DNA of 56,186 nt from NCBI GenBank assembly GCA_005776395.1, contig SXPJ01000104.1, positions 1-56,186 of the forward strand, written 5' to 3'. The notes beneath the pieces are model-generated. The model searched no databases. It had not been told where the DNA came from and worked only from the letters and a program-made list of their open reading frames with translations. The DNA is from Bdellovibrionales bacterium. Its GTDB lineage: Bacteria > Bdellovibrionota > FAC87 > UBA2466. The position numbers and the translations under genes were made by a program. Shown here piece by piece: positions 17,000-25,929 of this stretch. Every line of letters starts with the position of its first letter. Position 1 is the first letter of the stretch.

Positions 17000-18391
17000 C
17001 TAAAACGAATTTCCCAGTTCTATATAGAAGGAAGAGCCCTCAGGGGTCAGTGCAAGATCCCCTCGAACGATCAATCTTTTTCCCCAGATGATTCGTGTGC
17101 CCCAGCCTATCGAGGCATGTAAGTTTCCTATCTGGATCGGAAGTAATTTATTCCAAACTCGTCCTACATCAACAAAGGGGACAAAGCCTAACTGAATCTC
17201 TTGATCGGCAAAACCAAAGCTCACGGGATCCCAACGCAACTCAAACCCTATAGCCGAGCGAATATGGTCGATAAAACGGTTACCATCGTAACCTCTCATA
17301 AACCGATCTCCCCCAAAACCAATCGTTGAATCAGAGCCCCCTGCGCTTGAAAGTTCATAAAAGGGCACTGTCCCAGACAAAACTTCAAAAAAGGTTCGAT
17401 GTGCAAAAATTAATTTTCGATTAAGTGGATAATAGTATCTGAACGTATAAGTTGTTCTTAAAAAATCATAATTGCTTCCCGTGAATTTGGAATACCACTG
17501 CAGATAAAGCTCATTGAAACTTCCTTTAGTGGGATAGGGTTCGAAATCCAAAGTATCATGAACAATAGCCCATCCCATATAATGAGTTTTTCCACCGGAA
17601 CTTCCCAGAGGATGTTCTGTTGTTAGAAGACTTGTGGGGGGAGCTGAAATAGTCATCCATTTAAAACCCAGAACAGGACCGGTTCTTATATTCCTTCCCA
17701 TGTACCGTAAGACCTGAAGCGTAATCGTCGGTGAAGTCCTTTGATTAGCATACAAAGGATTTTCAGGCTCCAGACCAATGGGGTTCACTTTTGTGTCATT
17801 GCCCATACCGTAATATCTCTGAGTGATATCACTGTTAAAGGCTATTCTACTGGTAACCCTCCATAGGCCGCCAAATGCGTAGGGATAGTCCACTTGAAAG
17901 AAATGCTTATAACGCCCTTTATCACTCGCTAGAACCTGTCCTATAAACTCGGCCTTATGTGGGTCTTGTCTCAGAATATCAACTAGCTTGGCATGTAACC
18001 CTAAGTGGAAACCATTATTAGGGCTTGGAAAGATAAGAGGGATTCCCTGAATCGTCCAAGGTTCCCCCCACATTTGAAACCCTTTACGACTCACCACTTT
18101 ATCAATTCGAGAAGCAACCTCCTCTCCGAAAAGCTTAAGTTCTTTTCCCATTCCAGGTGTTTTCGGAGGGTTTATTAACGGCCCATCTTCAATAAAATCA
18201 TCCGGACGTAACGCGGCGGGCACTTCAGAACTCTCCTCCTCTTTCTTAGGAATTCTACTTTTTTTCTTGTTGAGCGGTCGGGCTCTTTTAATACCTGGGA
18301 GTTCAGATTCAGCAGAAATCGGCGTAGAGATACCAATAAAACAGACCCCTACTACCGTAAGGTAACAAAAAAATTTCTGCCCAAATAACAT
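17000..18391 (-). CDS. Omp85-type outer-membrane beta-barrel protein
   Basis: A 463-residue protein; the ATG at 18391 has AGGA four bases upstream and opens directly on a signal peptide (about 25 residues ending in SAES). A basic/acidic linker follows, and no POTRA domains are evident. The C-terminal part is a barrel with the surface-antigen/BamA pattern: GGSDSTIGFGGDRFMRGYDG (lipid-binding and RGF/Y-like loop) and a final aromatic residue after ELGNS. Without POTRA domains it resembles stand-alone barrel members of the superfamily, not BamA itself. Transport role unknown. Confidence 0.8.
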   Translation of the reverse strand: MLFGQKFFCYLTVVGVCFIGISTPISAESELPGIKRARPLNKKKSRIPKKEEESSEVPAALRPDDFIEDGPLINPPKTPGMGKELKLFGEEVASRIDKVVSRKGFQMWGEPWTIQGIPLIFPSPNNGFHLGLHAKLVDILRQDPHKAEFIGQVLASDKGRYKHFFQVDYPYAFGGLWRVTSRIAFNSDITQRYYGMGNDTKVNPIGLEPENPLYANQRTSPTITLQVLRYMGRNIRTGPVLGFKWMTISAPPTSLLTTEHPLGSSGGKTHYMGWAIVHDTLDFEPYPTKGSFNELYLQWYSKFTGSNYDFLRTTYTFRYYYPLNRKLIFAHRTFFEVLSGTVPFYELSSAGGSDSTIGFGGDRFMRGYDGNRFIDHIRSAIGFELRWDPVSFGFADQEIQLGFVPFVDVGRVWNKLLPIQIGNLHASIGWGTRIIWGKRLIVRGDLALTPEGSSFYIELGNSF

Positions 18392-18469
18392 GATTCCTGA
18401 TTTTGGCCTGATCTGCCTTATTTGAGAAGTGAAAAATAGGGTAAGGGGTTCGAAATTCAAGTTTTTGTT

Positions 18470-19042
18470 TCATCTGCGCACAGAAGTATTCCAGGTTGAT
18501 TTTACACGACTATCTAAAAACCTCTCAACGCTGGTAAATGAAATATGATCTCCAATGCTTTTTCCATAATAGAAATACTGAATGATACCATCTTCCGCTA
18601 TCAAGAAGTGGGCTGGAACCTGCCCTATCTTACCGTCAATTTTTCCTTGCGGATTTCCATTTAAAATAGCTTTAATAAAAGTCACAACGACACTGGGCTT
18701 TAGCACTGCCTTTAGACTTTCCTCAGTCTCGTAAAGTTCATAGAGCTTTTTCTCTGGCTCTGAAATCAGTGGAAAGTCAGGAAAAGGTTCTTTAAGGCTT
18801 TTGAACTTATCAGGACTAGATTCAAAAATAGCTATTATTTTTAATCCCCTCTTCATTAAATCTGGGCATCTTTTTTTAACTGCATTTAAATGAAGATTAC
18901 AGAGTGGACAGCCCGGATAGCGATAGAAGATAAGCCACAAAGGGGAGCCCAAAAACTGAGAAGATGAAATCTCTTCTCCTTGCCACGTTTGCGCGACAAA
19001 CTTAGGGGCCTCCATTCCAATCTTAATTCTTTTTTCATTCAT
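18470..19042 (-). CDS. peroxiredoxin-like thioredoxin-fold protein
   Basis: AhpC/TSA-type thioredoxin fold of 190 residues. The motif PGCPLCNLHL gives a CxxC at the start of the first helix. A KPSVVVTFIKAI stretch and a C-terminal strand pair with PAHFLIAEDG follow. Such proteins are usually thiol peroxidases or reductases of the cytoplasm; no signal peptide is seen. It sits between two outer-membrane barrel genes on the same strand. The donor and substrate are not predictable. Confidence 0.8.
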   Translation of the reverse strand: MNEKRIKIGMEAPKFVAQTWQGEEISSSQFLGSPLWLIFYRYPGCPLCNLHLNAVKKRCPDLMKRGLKIIAIFESSPDKFKSLKEPFPDFPLISEPEKKLYELYETEESLKAVLKPSVVVTFIKAILNGNPQGKIDGKIGQVPAHFLIAEDGIIQYFYYGKSIGDHISFTSVERFLDSRVKSTWNTSVRR

Positions 19043-19076: not shown

Positions 19077-19733
19077 TTAAAACATGATCCCTAAACCCAT
19101 TCCAGCAAAAGGCCCTGAGAGATTTAAATCTCCACCTTCAGAAACAAACGACACTCCATTGCTTTTTAGATCTCTAAGATTGAGCCAATGGTATCCGGCC
19201 TCTAAATGAAAAGCTAATCGTGAAGTGACTTTTAACTCCATTGAGGCTCGAGCATAGTAATTCCAAAATCGAGTTCCTCGAGTAAAACTCACTTGAGTTA
19301 ATGAAGAGATTTTTTGTTCGAAGGGGTAGAGCCCCCCCACAGCGAAAAGATAGGCTATTCTTGGGTTTTTTCGAACATAGGCCACTTCAGGGCCGACCAT
19401 TTGTAAATTCAAACTATTCTTTTCAGAAACTCCTTCCAATAAAAACTCCCTAGAGGTAAACCATCGTTCATATCTTGCCCCTATCCACAAATAAGAAAAA
19501 AGATAGCCCCCCAATCCAAGGGTAGCGACTAACGGAGTTCTCATATTTTTTGAGTACTGGGCTCCCGCAACTGCATCAGCTTTATTTGAAGTAAGTGCAA
19601 GATCTCCTGCTAGATAAAAAAGAAACGGACGATCAGGTAGATTGACAACTTTCCTAGCCAATGTAGTTCTAGGAAACAGGAGTGACACTCCTAAAATCAA
19701 TCCTAAGAAAGATATTTTTCGTGCATAGTCCAT
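19077..19733 (-). CDS. small outer-membrane beta-barrel protein
   Basis: About 218 residues: a signal peptide (to about residue 27, ending in TLA) followed by alternating amphipathic strands and a C-terminal phenylalanine (GIMF), the usual barrel signature. Family not recognised; the length suits an eight-strand barrel. The ATG at 19733 is preferred over the GTG three bases earlier. Confidence 0.7.
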   Translation of the reverse strand: MDYARKISFLGLILGVSLLFPRTTLARKVVNLPDRPFLFYLAGDLALTSNKADAVAGAQYSKNMRTPLVATLGLGGYLFSYLWIGARYERWFTSREFLLEGVSEKNSLNLQMVGPEVAYVRKNPRIAYLFAVGGLYPFEQKISSLTQVSFTRGTRFWNYYARASMELKVTSRLAFHLEAGYHWLNLRDLKSNGVSFVSEGGDLNLSGPFAGMGLGIMF

Positions 19734-19818
19734 CACCTAGTCTTCGGACTATTTAACACTCAGTCACAGAACATAATGAAGGATTAACTATGTCGAAAAG
19801 CGAACATTGATAAACAGA

Positions 19819-20430
19819 TTAAGGAACTGTAGAAAATGGAATATCTTCGATAGGATAGTTTTCCCAAGCTTTAAAATCGAAATGCCACCACTCAGTATCA
19901 AGACCTACAAATCCCTCCTGTTCCATGGCTTTCTCTAATAGGGTGCGATTTGATATCTGTTTCTTTGTACCCTTCATAGAGTTGCGATGGGCCCTCTCAG
20001 TAAAGTCATCGTAGCCAGTCGGCATCTCAAGCTCTTTGTCATCTGCATTAATAAGAGTTAAGTCTACAGCGGCACCTCGATTATGACGAGAGCCCTTCTC
20101 GGGATTTGCGACATATCTTTCATCAGGCACTAACTCCCAAAATTTCTTCTGAACCGTTAAAGGACGATAGCAGTCATAAATCTTTAAACGTAATCCCCGA
20201 ATCTTAAGTGAAGCTTGGACTCTTGAAAGAGCCTCTGCCACCGGTTTTCTCAAGAGACATCTAGCTTCTGGATAAATCACCTTGTGAGTAAAATTATTCG
20301 AAGTCGCATACCGAATATCCAAGAACAAACTAAAATCATACTTTTTAGCATCGATGAGCGGAGTATTATCTGCCCAGCTGAGACCTGAAAGCTGAGAAAC
20401 TATCCATAAAAAAACAAATGAAATTCTCAT
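19819..20430 (-). CDS. ddpX: D-alanyl-D-alanine dipeptidase (VanX/DdpX, M15D)
   Basis: Zinc dipeptidase that splits D-Ala-D-Ala. A signal peptide (residues 1-20, ending in SWA) places it in the periplasm. Family marks are LDIRYATSNNF (38-47), YDCYRP with Arg89, SRHNRGAAVD with His116 and Asp123 as zinc ligands, and EWWHF with catalytic Glu180 and ligand His183. All expected residues are present. Its start codon overlaps the stop of the RND pump gene (ATGA), so it is translated as part of the efflux operon. A role in recycling peptidoglycan peptides fits better than antibiotic resistance, because no vanA/vanH homologue is near. Confidence 0.9.
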   Translation of the reverse strand: MRISFVFLWIVSQLSGLSWADNTPLIDAKKYDFSLFLDIRYATSNNFTHKVIYPEARCLLRKPVAEALSRVQASLKIRGLRLKIYDCYRPLTVQKKFWELVPDERYVANPEKGSRHNRGAAVDLTLINADDKELEMPTGYDDFTERAHRNSMKGTKKQISNRTLLEKAMEQEGFVGLDTEWWHFDFKAWENYPIEDIPFSTVP

Positions 20431-23400
20431 CTCTCTTCCGCAGGCTTAAGAAACACCAACCTACCCTTAATCCATAGACGAAACCGATCAATATAGGTAT
20501 ACGCGGCTGGAATAACTACTAAACTCAAAAGAGTCGAGCTAATGAGCCCTCCAATAATCGCAATTCCCATACTAGTGCGTTGTTTAGAGGCCTCGTTTAG
20601 GCCAATCGCAACCGGTAACATTCCTGCAATAAGAGCGAAGGTGGTCATCAAAATAGGACGTAATCGCATTTTACCTGCCTGCACTAAGGCCTGACCTCTC
20701 TCCATTCCTTCCTTGATAAGCTGATTAGCAGCATCTACAAGAAGAATTGAATTCTTAGTCGCCACCCCTAGCAGCAAAATACATCCAATCATCGAATTAA
20801 TATCTAGAGATTGTCTAGTGATAAAGAGCGCAATAAAGGCCCCGCACGCAGCAAGCGGAATAATCAACATAATCGTAAGCGGTGTAATGAAAGACTCATA
20901 AAGACTTGCTAATACCAGATAAATAAAGACGATAGCTAAAATCGCAGCGGTCGCCATGCTCTCGATAAGCTCCTTAAAGTTCTCAGCCTGTCCGACAAAG
21001 GCATAACTCACCCCCTCAGGTAACTTCATCTCACCTTCGAGAAGTTGATTAATATCGGTCATCACTCCCGCCATACCTTTTCCGCCTGGGGTTAAATCAG
21101 CCGATAGCTGAACGTATCGGCCCCGATCCTGTCTCAAAATATTAGCGGGTCCTGTGGCTTCAACTCCACTAGCAATATTCTTAAGAGCAATTTGTCTAAA
21201 GTTAATATTAGGAACAAAGGTCTTATTAAAATTAGTTTTTAGATCCCTATCTTCTTCTTGAAGCCGAACACGAATATCATACTCTCTACCCTCTTCTCGA
21301 TATACAGCCGGTGTAGAGCCCTCAATTTGATTTCTGAGTTCAGTTCCTACAATACTACTTGAAACTCCCATTCGCTCAGCTTTTCTGTTATCTAAAATCA
21401 CTTGGAATTCAGGTTTTCCGGGGCGTACACTCGTATCCACATCTTTAAGATCGGGCATTGTTTTAAGATGCTTGAATAACTTATCAGAAACTTTTTCAAC
21501 AACCGCAAGATCACTTCCAATGATATTCACATTAAAAGGACGTGATCCCGCACCTACCATATCGATATCTTTCACTGTAGGATTTGCAAACGCAAATTCT
21601 TTAAGCTGCCCCCTCAATCGATCTTTAAATTGAGTCGTATTTACTTTGCGCTGTTTCGCTGGAACCAACTCAACAAAGAATGTCGCTACATTACTTTCAA
21701 GATCACGACTTCCTACCATCAATACAGCAGACTTTACTTCGGAATTAGCGCGAACAACGTCATCTACTTTCTGGGCCACTCGAGCCATTTCGTTCAAATG
21801 AGTTCCGGGAGGCATGTCCAATCCTATCGAGAACTCGCCATAATCCTGAGCTCCTAAAAATGTTTTTGGAGTAAATTTAAGAGCCACTCCGCTCAATATC
21901 ACAACTAGCCCAGCGAATACGAATGTCTTCAGAGGCTTATGAATGGTTTGCTCTAAAATCTGTGCATACCTATTTTCCAGTGAACTCTGAAATTTATTAA
22001 ACAACTTTAAGGCACGCCCCAAAGTAGCTCCAAGAAATCCATCTTCTGGAAATCCGTGACTCTTACCTGCAAAATAGGCGGAAAGCATAGGGGCTACCGT
22101 TAAAGCATCAAAAAGACTAATAACCATTGCGAAGCAAATTGTAAGCCCGAACTCTTTAAAGAATTGTCCTACCACCCCTTTTAAGAAAGCAATCGGACCA
22201 AACACCGCAAGAACTGCACAGGTGGTCGCAATAACGGCCAGAGTCACCTCTTTAGTTCCAACTGAAGAGGCCTTGATAGGATCCTCTCCCATCTCAATAT
22301 GTCTAAATATGTTTTCTCGAACTACAATAGCATCGTCGATAAGAAGCCCTACAGCTAACGAAAGTGCTAGTAAGGTCATTACATTGACTGTAAACCCTGC
22401 CATAGCCATTAAAATAAAGGCTCCCAAAAGAGAGTTGGGTAATGCAAGCCCTGTAATTAACGTTGATCGTGCCGAACCTAAAAAGAAAAAAACTACAATG
22501 ATAGTTAAAACAATCCCGATAAAAATCGATTCGGTGACATCGTCTATATTGGCTCGAATGGGTTTTAAGGAATTTCGCACGATTTCAAGCGTGGGTTTTC
22601 CCTCAGCATGAGCCACCGTCTGATTAATCTCAGAAACACGAGCGCTAACAGTATTCGCAACTTCAATGGTATTAGCCCCTGTCTGTCTAAAAACCATTAA
22701 AAATAAAGATTTCTTCCCATTGTAAAAGGTCCTCGAGTTTTCCTCTTCAAGAGAATCGGTTACTTTGGCAACCTGAGACACGGTGACTGGAACATCATTT
22801 CCAATAAAATTAACAATCACATCCCCAATATCTTTTAAACTTCGAAACTCCCCTAAAGTTCGAAACACCAAATCCGTTCCGTTCTGTTTAACCTTACCCG
22901 CTGGAATATTTTGCCCAGTGCTCGCAATTCTCTGAGAGATTTGTGAAGCGGAGATCTCGTAAGCATTAAGTTTCTTTCGATCTAGTTCAACTCGAATCTC
23001 CCGTTTCCTTCCCCCTAGAATTTCTACAAGTCCCACATTTTTTATTTGCTCGATTTTAGGACGAATGACCTGGTCCGCAAGATCATATAATTTTGACTCC
23101 GAAAGATCCGCTGCCACCGTGATAGTCATTATCGGTTGATCAGCAGGATCCACTCTTCGAATAAACGACTCTTTTGTCTCCTTAGGAAGCTTTATCTTTG
23201 CAGAGGATACTTTGTCTCTCACCTGTTGTTCCGCATATTTCACATCGGTCTCAAGAGTGAACTCCGCAATAACAATACTAATCCCTTCTTTATTGATCGA
23301 ACGAAGTCTTTTGATTCCTGCCACTGTCGAAATTTGATCTTCAAGAACCTTTGAAACAAGGGTCTCTACCTCTCTAGGGCCCGCTCCAGGATAAGGGGTA

Positions 23401-23543
23401 CTCACAGTCACTACAGGAAAAGTAACATTAGGAAAAAGATCTACCCCTAACTTCTTTAATGACAAATACCCTATCACGAGCATCGCAATGACTGTGCAGG
23501 TAATAAAAATCGGGCGTTTAATTGAAAGCTCGGCGAGTGTCAC
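20427..23543 (-). CDS. RND-family inner-membrane transporter (HAE1/AcrB type)
   Basis: A 1038-residue proton-driven pump with the standard plan: TM1 at the N-terminus, a large periplasmic loop, TM2-6, a second loop and TM7-12. TM4 carries the proton-relay pair in GLLIDDAIVVREN. It resembles AcrB/MdtB/MexB-type multidrug pumps more than CusA. It overlaps tolC upstream by 4 bp and ddpX downstream by 4 bp. No membrane-fusion (adaptor) gene lies in or near the operon, although such pumps normally need one. Confidence 0.95.
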   Translation of the reverse strand: MTLAELSIKRPIFITCTVIAMLVIGYLSLKKLGVDLFPNVTFPVVTVSTPYPGAGPREVETLVSKVLEDQISTVAGIKRLRSINKEGISIVIAEFTLETDVKYAEQQVRDKVSSAKIKLPKETKESFIRRVDPADQPIMTITVAADLSESKLYDLADQVIRPKIEQIKNVGLVEILGGRKREIRVELDRKKLNAYEISASQISQRIASTGQNIPAGKVKQNGTDLVFRTLGEFRSLKDIGDVIVNFIGNDVPVTVSQVAKVTDSLEEENSRTFYNGKKSLFLMVFRQTGANTIEVANTVSARVSEINQTVAHAEGKPTLEIVRNSLKPIRANIDDVTESIFIGIVLTIIVVFFFLGSARSTLITGLALPNSLLGAFILMAMAGFTVNVMTLLALSLAVGLLIDDAIVVRENIFRHIEMGEDPIKASSVGTKEVTLAVIATTCAVLAVFGPIAFLKGVVGQFFKEFGLTICFAMVISLFDALTVAPMLSAYFAGKSHGFPEDGFLGATLGRALKLFNKFQSSLENRYAQILEQTIHKPLKTFVFAGLVVILSGVALKFTPKTFLGAQDYGEFSIGLDMPPGTHLNEMARVAQKVDDVVRANSEVKSAVLMVGSRDLESNVATFFVELVPAKQRKVNTTQFKDRLRGQLKEFAFANPTVKDIDMVGAGSRPFNVNIIGSDLAVVEKVSDKLFKHLKTMPDLKDVDTSVRPGKPEFQVILDNRKAERMGVSSSIVGTELRNQIEGSTPAVYREEGREYDIRVRLQEEDRDLKTNFNKTFVPNINFRQIALKNIASGVEATGPANILRQDRGRYVQLSADLTPGGKGMAGVMTDINQLLEGEMKLPEGVSYAFVGQAENFKELIESMATAAILAIVFIYLVLASLYESFITPLTIMLIIPLAACGAFIALFITRQSLDINSMIGCILLLGVATKNSILLVDAANQLIKEGMERGQALVQAGKMRLRPILMTTFALIAGMLPVAIGLNEASKQRTSMGIAIIGGLISSTLLSLVVIPAAYTYIDRFRLWIKGRLVFLKPAEER

Positions 23544-24976
23544 AGGTTTTCTCCTGGGTTGGCTTCAAGGGGCAAGTAGGTCTTCATCTGGGCTAGAAGA
23601 GCTAGAATTTGAAGCTCCGTTTTCAACATTACAATTTGACTGCTGGCGTAATCCTGTTCGAACAACACAACCTGATACAACACCGATCGCCCTGTCTTCA
23701 AACGAGCTCGCTCGTTCTCTAGTTTTTGTTGTTGCACCTTTTCGATATCTTTGGCCAATTGCAATCGCCGTTTAGCCTCTCCAAATCGGGTAACTAGTTC
23801 GTTCCATGCAATCTCCTCTTCAAATATTTTCCTCTGATAATTAAGCTCGGCCCCTTTTTCTTCTTTAAGATATCCCGCTTTATCAAGAATCACAGTTCCC
23901 AGATCTAAAGGAGCCGAAAATTTCAAACCCATAGCAAAGGTATTTTGTCCTGTTCTACTCGCGTCAGAAACACTTTGACTTAAAGAAGAATCTCGGCCGT
24001 TCAAACTATAACTACTAAAAATATCAAAGGTGGGTGAATTTTTTTCTCGTCCCAGTTCGCTCATAGCTTGCGCAGCTTTTCTAGCTTCGTCAGCAGCTAA
24101 GAGATCCTCTCTTTGCCCCTTACGTTCTATTGGAGAAAGCATAATCAACTTGTCGCCATCGATCTTTTCGAGGATCTCCTCAGTAGTTTCAGAATCTTTT
24201 CCACGAAGGCTGTTAAACCTCTTAATGGCCTCTCTTTGCTCGTCTATCGCCATCTGTAATTCGAGCTGTTTACCTTGCAGTCCAGCTTCAGCTTGCAAAG
24301 TGTCCGATTTATCAGCCAAAGCCAGAGAGGCTCGCCTTGCGCTCCACTCTCTAATTTTCTTGGCTCTCTCCACTCCGTTTTTTGCAACTCCGACAAGTTC
24401 TCTAGCAATAACAAGTCCCCAGTAAGAGCTCTCTGCTTCAGCTAGGATAGCTTTTGATTTTAGAGCTTCAGTAAGGCTTAGGGCCTTAGCTTGGGCTTCA
24501 ATCACTTTCACCGTAGCTCTGGTTTCTGAACCAAAACCATTTCTCCATAAGGACTGATTTAACTCCAACGAGGGAACAACATTATAAAATTTTGACAGTG
24601 GCACAAAGGCTTGATTGACTCCAAAAAGTTCTGTTCGAGTCACGGTATAGATTAATTTTGCGGAGAGCCCAAACTTTGTTTGTTCCGCTATACCTAAAGA
24701 ATAACTTTGAAATACCGTACGATTTCCCAGAAACGAAGGATTATTCGTAGGCTTTCGATCATCCAAATATTGAACATTTGAAATAAGAGAAGGAAAGGTT
24801 AATAAAGTAGCCTCCCCTGTTCTCTCTAGAACTCCTTGACTCACCCACTGAGAGGCTTGATAACCCAAATGTTTTTGCTTCACCTGAGAAAGATAATCTT
24901 TGAGAGTTAACAGCTCAGTCCCTAAAGATAGAGAACTAGAGAAAAAAAACAGACTGAACAATATTCTTAACCACAT
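23540..24976 (-). CDS. TolC-family outer-membrane efflux protein
   Basis: A 478-residue protein with a signal peptide (1-19), long alpha-helical heptad stretches and two internal repeats typical of TolC. It contains the second-repeat segment GLKFSAPLDLGT, with a LELNQSLWRNGFG counterpart in the first repeat. It forms the outer-membrane channel and periplasmic tunnel for the RND pump encoded immediately downstream, with which it overlaps by 4 bp. First gene of the operon. Confidence 0.9.
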   Translation of the reverse strand: MWLRILFSLFFFSSSLSLGTELLTLKDYLSQVKQKHLGYQASQWVSQGVLERTGEATLLTFPSLISNVQYLDDRKPTNNPSFLGNRTVFQSYSLGIAEQTKFGLSAKLIYTVTRTELFGVNQAFVPLSKFYNVVPSLELNQSLWRNGFGSETRATVKVIEAQAKALSLTEALKSKAILAEAESSYWGLVIARELVGVAKNGVERAKKIREWSARRASLALADKSDTLQAEAGLQGKQLELQMAIDEQREAIKRFNSLRGKDSETTEEILEKIDGDKLIMLSPIERKGQREDLLAADEARKAAQAMSELGREKNSPTFDIFSSYSLNGRDSSLSQSVSDASRTGQNTFAMGLKFSAPLDLGTVILDKAGYLKEEKGAELNYQRKIFEEEIAWNELVTRFGEAKRRLQLAKDIEKVQQQKLENERARLKTGRSVLYQVVLFEQDYASSQIVMLKTELQILALLAQMKTYLPLEANPGENL

Positions 24977-25105: not shown

Positions 25106-25606
25106 ATGAAAGTAAGAACTTGGCTTTTTATTGCATTAGGGCTTGGGATCTGCTCCTTGGGATTAGCAAACTCAAAAACGACAACTCAAACAGATCTCTT
25201 TTCTAAGGTTTTAATACCGTACACAGAACTTCAAAGAGCCCTCTCACAGGATAAAATAGATCCTGTTAAAAAACAGGCTGAGGCAATGAAAATTTCACTA
25301 GAAAATCTCTTGAAAGGGCCACTTAAAAAAGAGGAGGTCTCTCTATTCAACGAACTCCTTACCCATGTAAATAACTTCCTTGAAGCTAAAGAGATCAATG
25401 AATATCGTATTCAATTTGGGAATATCTCAAAAGTCCTCATTGAATATCTTAAACTCCATAAGGAGAAGACGAAGTCTTTTATGCTCCTATTCTGTCCGAT
25501 GTTTCCCGAAGGCTATGCCTTTTGGATCCAACCCAAAGGGGAGAGTCTTGCTAATCCCTATTGGGGAGAAAAGATGTTGACCTGTGGTGTAAAGCGTCCT
25601 TGGTAG
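25106..25606 (+). CDS. secreted DUF3347 protein, probable metal-binding
   Basis: A 166-residue protein with a signal peptide (1-22). The C-terminus has the distinctive DUF3347 ending: LLFCPMFPEGYAFWIQ, then LANPYWGEKMLTCG. In this family the CPM and MLTCG elements supply Cys and Met residues and are often found attached to CusB-type copper efflux adaptors or in copper-induced proteins. A helical part (about 30-130) precedes it. The ribosome site AAGGAG precedes the ATG. CopA is encoded 4 kb away. Confidence 0.75.
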   Translation: MKVRTWLFIALGLGICSLGLANSKTTTQTDLFSKVLIPYTELQRALSQDKIDPVKKQAEAMKISLENLLKGPLKKEEVSLFNELLTHVNNFLEAKEINEYRIQFGNISKVLIEYLKLHKEKTKSFMLLFCPMFPEGYAFWIQPKGESLANPYWGEKMLTCGVKRPW

Positions 25607-25614
25607 GTTTTACA

Positions 25615-25929
25615 TTAGAATAATAACTGGGCGAAAAAAATACCCCCAAAAAGAAACATCCAATAGATAAGCGATAAAGTCGCCACACTGGCATAAAGGT
25701 AGATTTTTACTGGCTTCACTTCCTTATTAACTCTAAATCTCACAAAAGCTTCTAGAGAAGAAAACAGGGCCCCTATCGGCAAAAGGGACTGATACTTTGG
25801 GTTATATTCACAATAGATAAAAAGAGATAAAAAGAATAAAGAGACAAAGGGGCGACTGTTAAACAGTTGCCCCAACCCCGGAAAACAGAAGCTATACACC
25901 CCTGCGAAAATCTGTTCTTTTGATTTCAT
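25615..25929 (-). CDS. small membrane protein, TM2/DUF5683-like
   Basis: A 104-residue protein with three hydrophobic segments. Its first has FPGLGQLFNSRP, close to the PGLGQLYNG motif of small TM2-type membrane proteins. Function unknown. It ends 8 bp from the convergent DUF3347 gene and begins 5 bp after the stop of the next minus-strand gene, so it is probably cotranscribed with it. Confidence 0.6.
   Translation of the reverse strand: MKSKEQIFAGVYSFCFPGLGQLFNSRPFVSLFFLSLFIYCEYNPKYQSLLPIGALFSSLEAFVRFRVNKEVKPVKIYLYASVATLSLIYWMFLFGGIFFAQLLF

Follow-up and report, generated by a model that had tools for sequence, protein, structure and literature searches.

Whether the resistance-nodulation-division (RND) permease and the TolC channel of bacterial efflux pumps touch each other directly has long been disputed. 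In its account of AcrAB-TolC, a 2015 review relates that the direct-docking model was challenged by images of longer complexes, in which AcrA lies between its partners (PMC4403515). A 2009 essay proposes that hopanoid-transport systems of bacteria, which include RND proteins, gave rise to the Hedgehog pathway (PMC2698682), and a 2018 paper on bacterial Hedgehog-like peptidases reports no clear receptor homologues in those bacteria (PMC6027127). PcgL is introduced in another paper as a D-Ala-D-Ala dipeptidase of Salmonella (PMC7933661). Here we analyze three adjoining genes, for a TolC-family channel, an RND permease and a VanX-like protein, in a 56,186-nucleotide stretch of DNA (the window; contig SXPJ01000104.1, assembly GCA_005776395.1) from a Bdellovibrionales bacterium. 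We found that the absence of an adaptor gene beside this pump is old and clade-wide, and that the dipeptidase is a later, family-level addition to the pump operon; relatives show that the absence of the one and the gain of the other have separate histories.

The three genes form one block on the minus strand. The first (positions 23540..24976) encodes a TolC-family outer-membrane channel of 478 aa with two OEP repeat stretches (Pfam OEP 51.8 bits, cut-off 22), and its AlphaFold2 model (predicted local distance difference test score, pLDDT, 90.9) has a CmeC/TolC/OprM fold (best Z 27.2). The second (20427..23543; 1038 aa, GTG start) encodes an HAE1-type RND permease (ACR_tran 841.9 bits, cut-off 28). 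The third (19819..20430; 203 aa) encodes a VanX/DdpX-like (M15) protein, a putative periplasmic D-Ala-D-Ala dipeptidase-like protein (Peptidase_M15 127.3 bits, cut-off 27). An earlier note on this DNA had described the genes as one coupled set, and both junctions are indeed overlaps of exactly 4 bp: GTGA at 23540..23543 (minus strand), which joins the TolC stop to the RND start, and ATGA at 20427..20430 (minus strand), which joins the RND stop to the dipeptidase start. Overlaps of 4 bp are ordinary in bacterial operons. Only 3 of the 31 codirectional pairs of neighboring open reading frames (ORFs, at least 100 aa) in the window have one, and two of these are the junctions of the set, so a coupled chain is atypical of the window. 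The same value was the commonest TolC/RND overlap among the matches listed for orthologues with TolC directly upstream. A scan for promoter-like sites in the window was of no use (6 found, 9.9 expected), and the terminator-like sites (10 found, 4.2 expected) often fell inside genes.

The earlier note had also remarked that the set lacks an adaptor gene. Pfam and NCBIfam scans of its neighbors in the window found none adjoining the three genes. Custom hidden Markov models (HMMs), among them an adaptor HMM built from 15 adaptors, were applied to the surroundings of RND and dipeptidase relatives at 110 loci (L067, L079-L117, L118-L187). Five loci lacked a usable RND ORF (L114-L117, L175), and the remaining 105 rows were reduced to 92 by removal of duplicates. 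RND proteins with at least 44% identity to that of the window were treated as orthologues (81, non-redundant); 52 of them had good flanks, meaning at least 3 kb upstream and at least 1.5 kb downstream. An adaptor was counted as present if it lay within five genes of the RND gene. By this measure, the custom HMM found no adaptor beside any of the 81 orthologues, including the 52 with good flanks. The same scan found one beside 9 of 11 more distant RND genes (<44% identity), and therefore the adaptor HMM works. The two distant genes without an adaptor, L165 (44%) and L169 (38%), were placed by the RND tree within the orthologue group or next to it.

In that tree, 69 full-length orthologues (window included) grouped with L165 and L212, both also adaptor-less, at a node of low support (0.17); the adaptor-less L169 lay just outside, and support at the root was also low. 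The group is mostly from Bdellovibrionota. In the contig scan, the nearest named match to the window RND was from Bdellovibrionaceae bacterium UBA2466 (86% identity, locus L118), and the remaining close matches were mostly named Bdellovibrionales, Bacteriovoracaceae, Oligoflexia or similar. The possibility of a recent loss in the lineage of the window, which the earlier note had raised, was rejected: none of the 81 orthologues has an adaptor beside the pump. For adjacent genes, the absence is old and shared by the whole clade.

Two further observations concern the distribution of such pumps. A second type of TolC-RND pair without an adjacent adaptor occurs in the same phylum (L208, L209, L211, L213, L215; ~31-34% identity to the window RND); L208, L211, L213 and L215 branch apart from the group of the window in the RND tree, which does not contain L209. 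RND relatives L160, L163, L164, L165 and L185 are on contigs named Rickettsiales or Spirochaetes, and those from Spirochaetes have no adjoining TolC; transfer or a binning error could account for them.

TolC lies directly upstream of RND in 45 of the 52 well-flanked orthologues, and a TetR gene lies two genes upstream of RND in 29 of them. The TolC-RND pair also occurs, together with a TetR gene, on contigs named Bdellovibrio sp. (L157, L158, L172; 51-52% identity). A gene of ~210 aa that precedes TolC in other families was considered as a hidden adaptor and rejected, as it encodes a TetR regulator in 8 of 8 cases scanned; a Pfam scan of ten neighbors gave eight TetR proteins, one leucyl-tRNA synthetase and one protein with no match.

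We also looked at the channel and the permease for features that could take the place of an adaptor. The TolC model aligned with CmeC (Z 27.2, root-mean-square deviation 4.0, 398 aligned residues) and with E. coli TolC (1ek9; Z 26.5), and the protein scored below the NCBIfam cut-offs for type_I_sec_TolC (43.7 vs 225.15) and outer_NodT (25.2 vs 210.05). The idea that a longer TolC bridges the gap was rejected, since H3-H4 spans 112 residues (112-113) in the clade and 108-114 in 12 other TolCs, and H7-H8 spans 109 residues compared with 107-111. The first beta region is longer, with a median of 87 residues in 67 clade TolCs vs 35-47 in 10 of the 12 others (86 and 91 in the other two). In the model of the window protein, this region has four predicted strands and the second region has two; the usual TolC count is four strands per chain. 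A count of six would point to a barrel in the outer membrane that is wider than usual. Residues D403, D404 and K930 of the permease, which we take to be the equivalents of the AcrB proton relay, occur throughout the clade (69 of 69 RNDs). The closest solved structure to the permease by sequence is MdtB (9lyq), and it scores below the NCBIfam RND_permease_2 (NF033617) cut-off (797.2 vs 1250 bits). An adaptor-like insertion was rejected here too, the clade-specific inserts being only 3 residues (310-312) and 9 residues (502-510).

The genome of the window (G000; 2.76 Mb, 106 contigs, 98% complete) encodes two full-length adaptors as assessed with TIGR01730 (RND_mfp), PF16576 and PF13533. One is CusB-like, in a TolC-CusB-CusA operon (C38), and the other is MacA-like, in a TolC-MacA-MacB-like operon (C67). 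The remaining matches were short or partial, for example a 122-aa frame on C84 (1.4e-6, model positions 65-129), and no orphan full-length adaptor, for which the earlier note had called for a search, was found with the three models. An unlikely alternative is that the pump borrows CusB or MacA in trans. This would fit the presence of both adaptors in the genome and the treatment of RND pumps as tripartite in a review (PMC4403515). Each of these adaptors is encoded in a tightly packed operon with partners of its own; AcrD, which works with AcrA in E. coli, is a precedent for use in trans. The first tip of the clade TolCs, which often has RR and LAD residues, differs from that of the other TolCs compared, and this too argues against a shared adaptor.

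Other genomes with the pump also speak against borrowing. Among the matches listed, those with at least 48% identity to the window RND came from 51 of 97 genomes. Four of these 51 (G010, G088, G076 and G005; 95%, 99%, 98% and only 83% complete, respectively) had no RND_mfp match better than 1e-5, and nothing over the PF16576 cut-off. PF13533 did exceed its cut-off in G010 and G088, in short biotinyl-type proteins near genes that by eye are carboxylase-like. No full-length adaptor was thus found in these two near-complete pump carriers, the only matches being biotinyl/lipoyl-domain or other short ones. G010 has a second TolC-RND pair, likewise without an adaptor. No TIGR01730 match was found in G005, which was not included in the PF13533 search. 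In G076, the only adaptor match was a partial protein of 189 aa, encoded before another RND gene.

Some loci for other transporters in these genomes are of separate interest. The 189-aa protein of G076 is short, secreted and His-rich, precedes a CzcA-like RND (L218:1725-4199), and matches the adaptor model in its C-terminal part only. The third RND of the window genome (C24, L206:3528-8416; CzcA-like by eye) is followed by a 141-aa His-rich protein and a TolC, without a full adaptor. Such short His-rich secreted proteins are possible mini-adaptors. In relatives from the genus of the window (g1), ABC transporter loci L198:881-7385 and L199:580-7121 have two different MacA-like adaptors around one gene set.

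Our preferred explanation, which we consider somewhat more probable than all others together, is that the set encodes an RND-TolC efflux module, driven by protons and operating with no classical membrane-fusion adaptor, to which an accessory VanX-fold protein was added in one family. We infer adaptor-free coupling from the absence of the adaptor and not from any visible substitute. Several points weigh against it, in addition to the possible use of an adaptor in trans. TolC is not directly upstream of RND in 7 of the 52 well-flanked orthologues (in L097 only through a split RND ORF), so some of these RNDs may work alone. The ordinary lengths of the TolC helices and the lack of a large insertion in RND mean that there is no obvious substitute for the adaptor. 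Finally, an adaptor could exist whose sequence has diverged beyond the reach of TIGR01730, PF16576, PF13533 and the custom HMM.

The VanX-like protein of the window has all five catalytic residues (R89, H116, D123, E180, H183). It matches VanX (1r44) by sequence at 9.3e-15, falls just under the cut-off for DdpX-type proteins (NF007557; 174.5 vs 176 bits), and begins with what appears by eye to be a signal-like segment. PcgL is periplasmic. The gene lies 3' of RND in the window and beside 9 of the 81 orthologues (G001-G005 of genus g1, G006, G010, G012 and G013), and all nine loci belong to the family of the window. In g1, it is linked to the pump in six of six genomes, with the active site intact, and is the only dipeptidase match. 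All five residues are gone from the linked copies of G010, G012 and G013, and that of G006, which is also shorter, has lost only E180, the positions in each case depending on the alignment. G006 lies outside g1 and g6 in the RND tree, and active-site loss may therefore have occurred more than once. Cysteines 58 and 87 are kept in all 11 VanX-like proteins (g1, G006, G008, G010, G012, G013).

One of these proteins, from G008, is encoded apart from a pump. In this genome (73% complete; L116:86-3158), TolC and RND are missing between conserved neighbors, and the VanX-like gene lies by pyrF and trmH. Its product has lost all five catalytic residues, again by an alignment-dependent placement, and has an extra N-terminal part, from which the gene reads through and which resembles a 104-aa protein of the window (25615-25929). 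In the tree of VanX-like proteins, a single clade (0.87) unites the linked copies with that of G008, the degenerate copies group together (0.92), and the linked clade lies beside intact unlinked enzymes, including those of G199 and G190.

The earlier note had suggested a role in the handling of peptidoglycan fragments or D-amino acids, and this did not hold up well. The idea would be that the three genes export or process muropeptides or D-amino acids, with the dipeptidase cleaving D-Ala-D-Ala on behalf of the pump, and the consistent coupling of a sole, intact enzyme in the six g1 genomes agrees with it. We regard it as very unlikely, because the enzyme is rare beside orthologous pumps and the active site has been lost in linked copies from two other genera. 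In addition, G008 has the gene in the syntenic position but lacks the pump. A dipeptidase match at 1e-12 was present in 89 of 290 genomes of the phylum, and G010 and G013 carry unlinked intact dipeptidases as well. No RND, TolC or adaptor was labeled in the stretches around unlinked dipeptidases at 14 readable loci (16 fetched). The g1 protein is probably still a D-Ala-D-Ala dipeptidase, for cell-wall recycling rather than for the work of the pump.

In the sister genera, the VanX-like protein is a fast-evolving pseudoenzyme. The copies of g6 have nonsynonymous divergence (dN) of 0.53-0.66, compared with 0.11-0.13 for RND; their frames are intact and synonymous sites are saturated, and dN/dS ratios were consequently not computable for most pairs. 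The VanX fold is predicted to be retained: a model of the G010 pseudoenzyme (pLDDT 83.9, five sequences) matched VanX 1r44 with Z 19.3 (root-mean-square deviation 2.7, 162 aligned residues), and the next matches, at Z ~10, were Hedgehog domains, the endolysins Ply500 and LysB4, and LdcB. This fold, together with the reading frame, the overlap with RND, the two cysteines and often a C-terminal tail, all kept despite synonymous saturation, is what would be expected if the protein were a non-catalytic partner or regulator of RND, in which catalysis is dispensable while the position in the operon is kept. We think this unlikely, since the fast evolution resembles relaxed constraint, G008 retains the gene without the pump, and most orthologous pumps have no VanX-like gene.

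The set has conserved neighbors. Downstream on the minus strand are a 219-aa protein with no Pfam match (19077..19736; barrel-like by eye only), kept in the loci of the family, and an Omp85-family outer-membrane protein (17000..18460; NF047779 244.5 bits, cut-off 200). A SelL-related redox protein (18470..19042, minus strand) is encoded between them in the window and in G003, and is not there in genus g6. Upstream of TolC are a DUF3347 protein and two small proteins. The DUF3347 gene (25106..25606, plus strand; 35.7 bits, cut-off 25.5) is divergent from TolC and kept in g1 and g6; the end of its product has Cys and Met residues by eye, and may bind metal.

We infer active transport by the module, and its substrate, docking and VanX-fold partner may be pictured as follows. 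The RND trimer would take up substrates that are small and probably hydrophobic, either in the periplasm or at the outer leaflet of the inner membrane, and would pass them to the TolC encoded in its operon, most likely by direct docking or through a non-homologous helper. The operon would have gained the VanX-fold periplasmic protein in some ancestor inside the family of the window. A bolder version, to which we give very little credence, is that a two-part pump with TolC directly on RND has long been spread in Bdellovibrionota, and that the VanX-fold partner is turning into a non-catalytic RND ligand, in parallel to Hedgehog and Patched/Dispatched. RND-TolC pairs that lack adjacent adaptors throughout a phylum-wide clade, some of them in genomes that yielded no full-length adaptor, would offer a direct test of coupling without an adaptor. 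The linked VanX-fold proteins, which range from intact enzyme to pseudoenzyme, form a natural experiment in the loss of catalysis by a peptidase fold next to an RND protein. Searches by exact words of the open-access literature for adaptor-less RND-TolC operons, for RND-TolC adaptors of Bdellovibrio, and for Hedgehog or dipeptidases with RND returned nothing relevant, which is no proof of novelty.

Like the HAE1 tripartite pumps AcrAB-TolC and MdtABC, the locus has an ACR_tran RND protein with a proton relay and a TolC-fold channel in the operon; unlike them, it has no adaptor beside the pump in any orthologue, and its permease is under the RND_permease_2 cut-off. Its third protein shares the M15 domain and, in the genus of the window, the active-site residues with VanX, DdpX and PcgL (M15D), but differs from them in being coupled to RND-TolC, in falling just short of the DdpX-type cut-off, and in the loss of the active site from linked copies of sister genera. 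The association of a protein of VanX-like fold with a member of the RND superfamily is reminiscent of the Hedgehog N-terminal domain and Patched/Dispatched. We regard this parallel as an analogy: the coupling here is of genes only, the RND protein resembles AcrB and MdtB, and the small protein appears nearest to VanX in both sequence and predicted fold.

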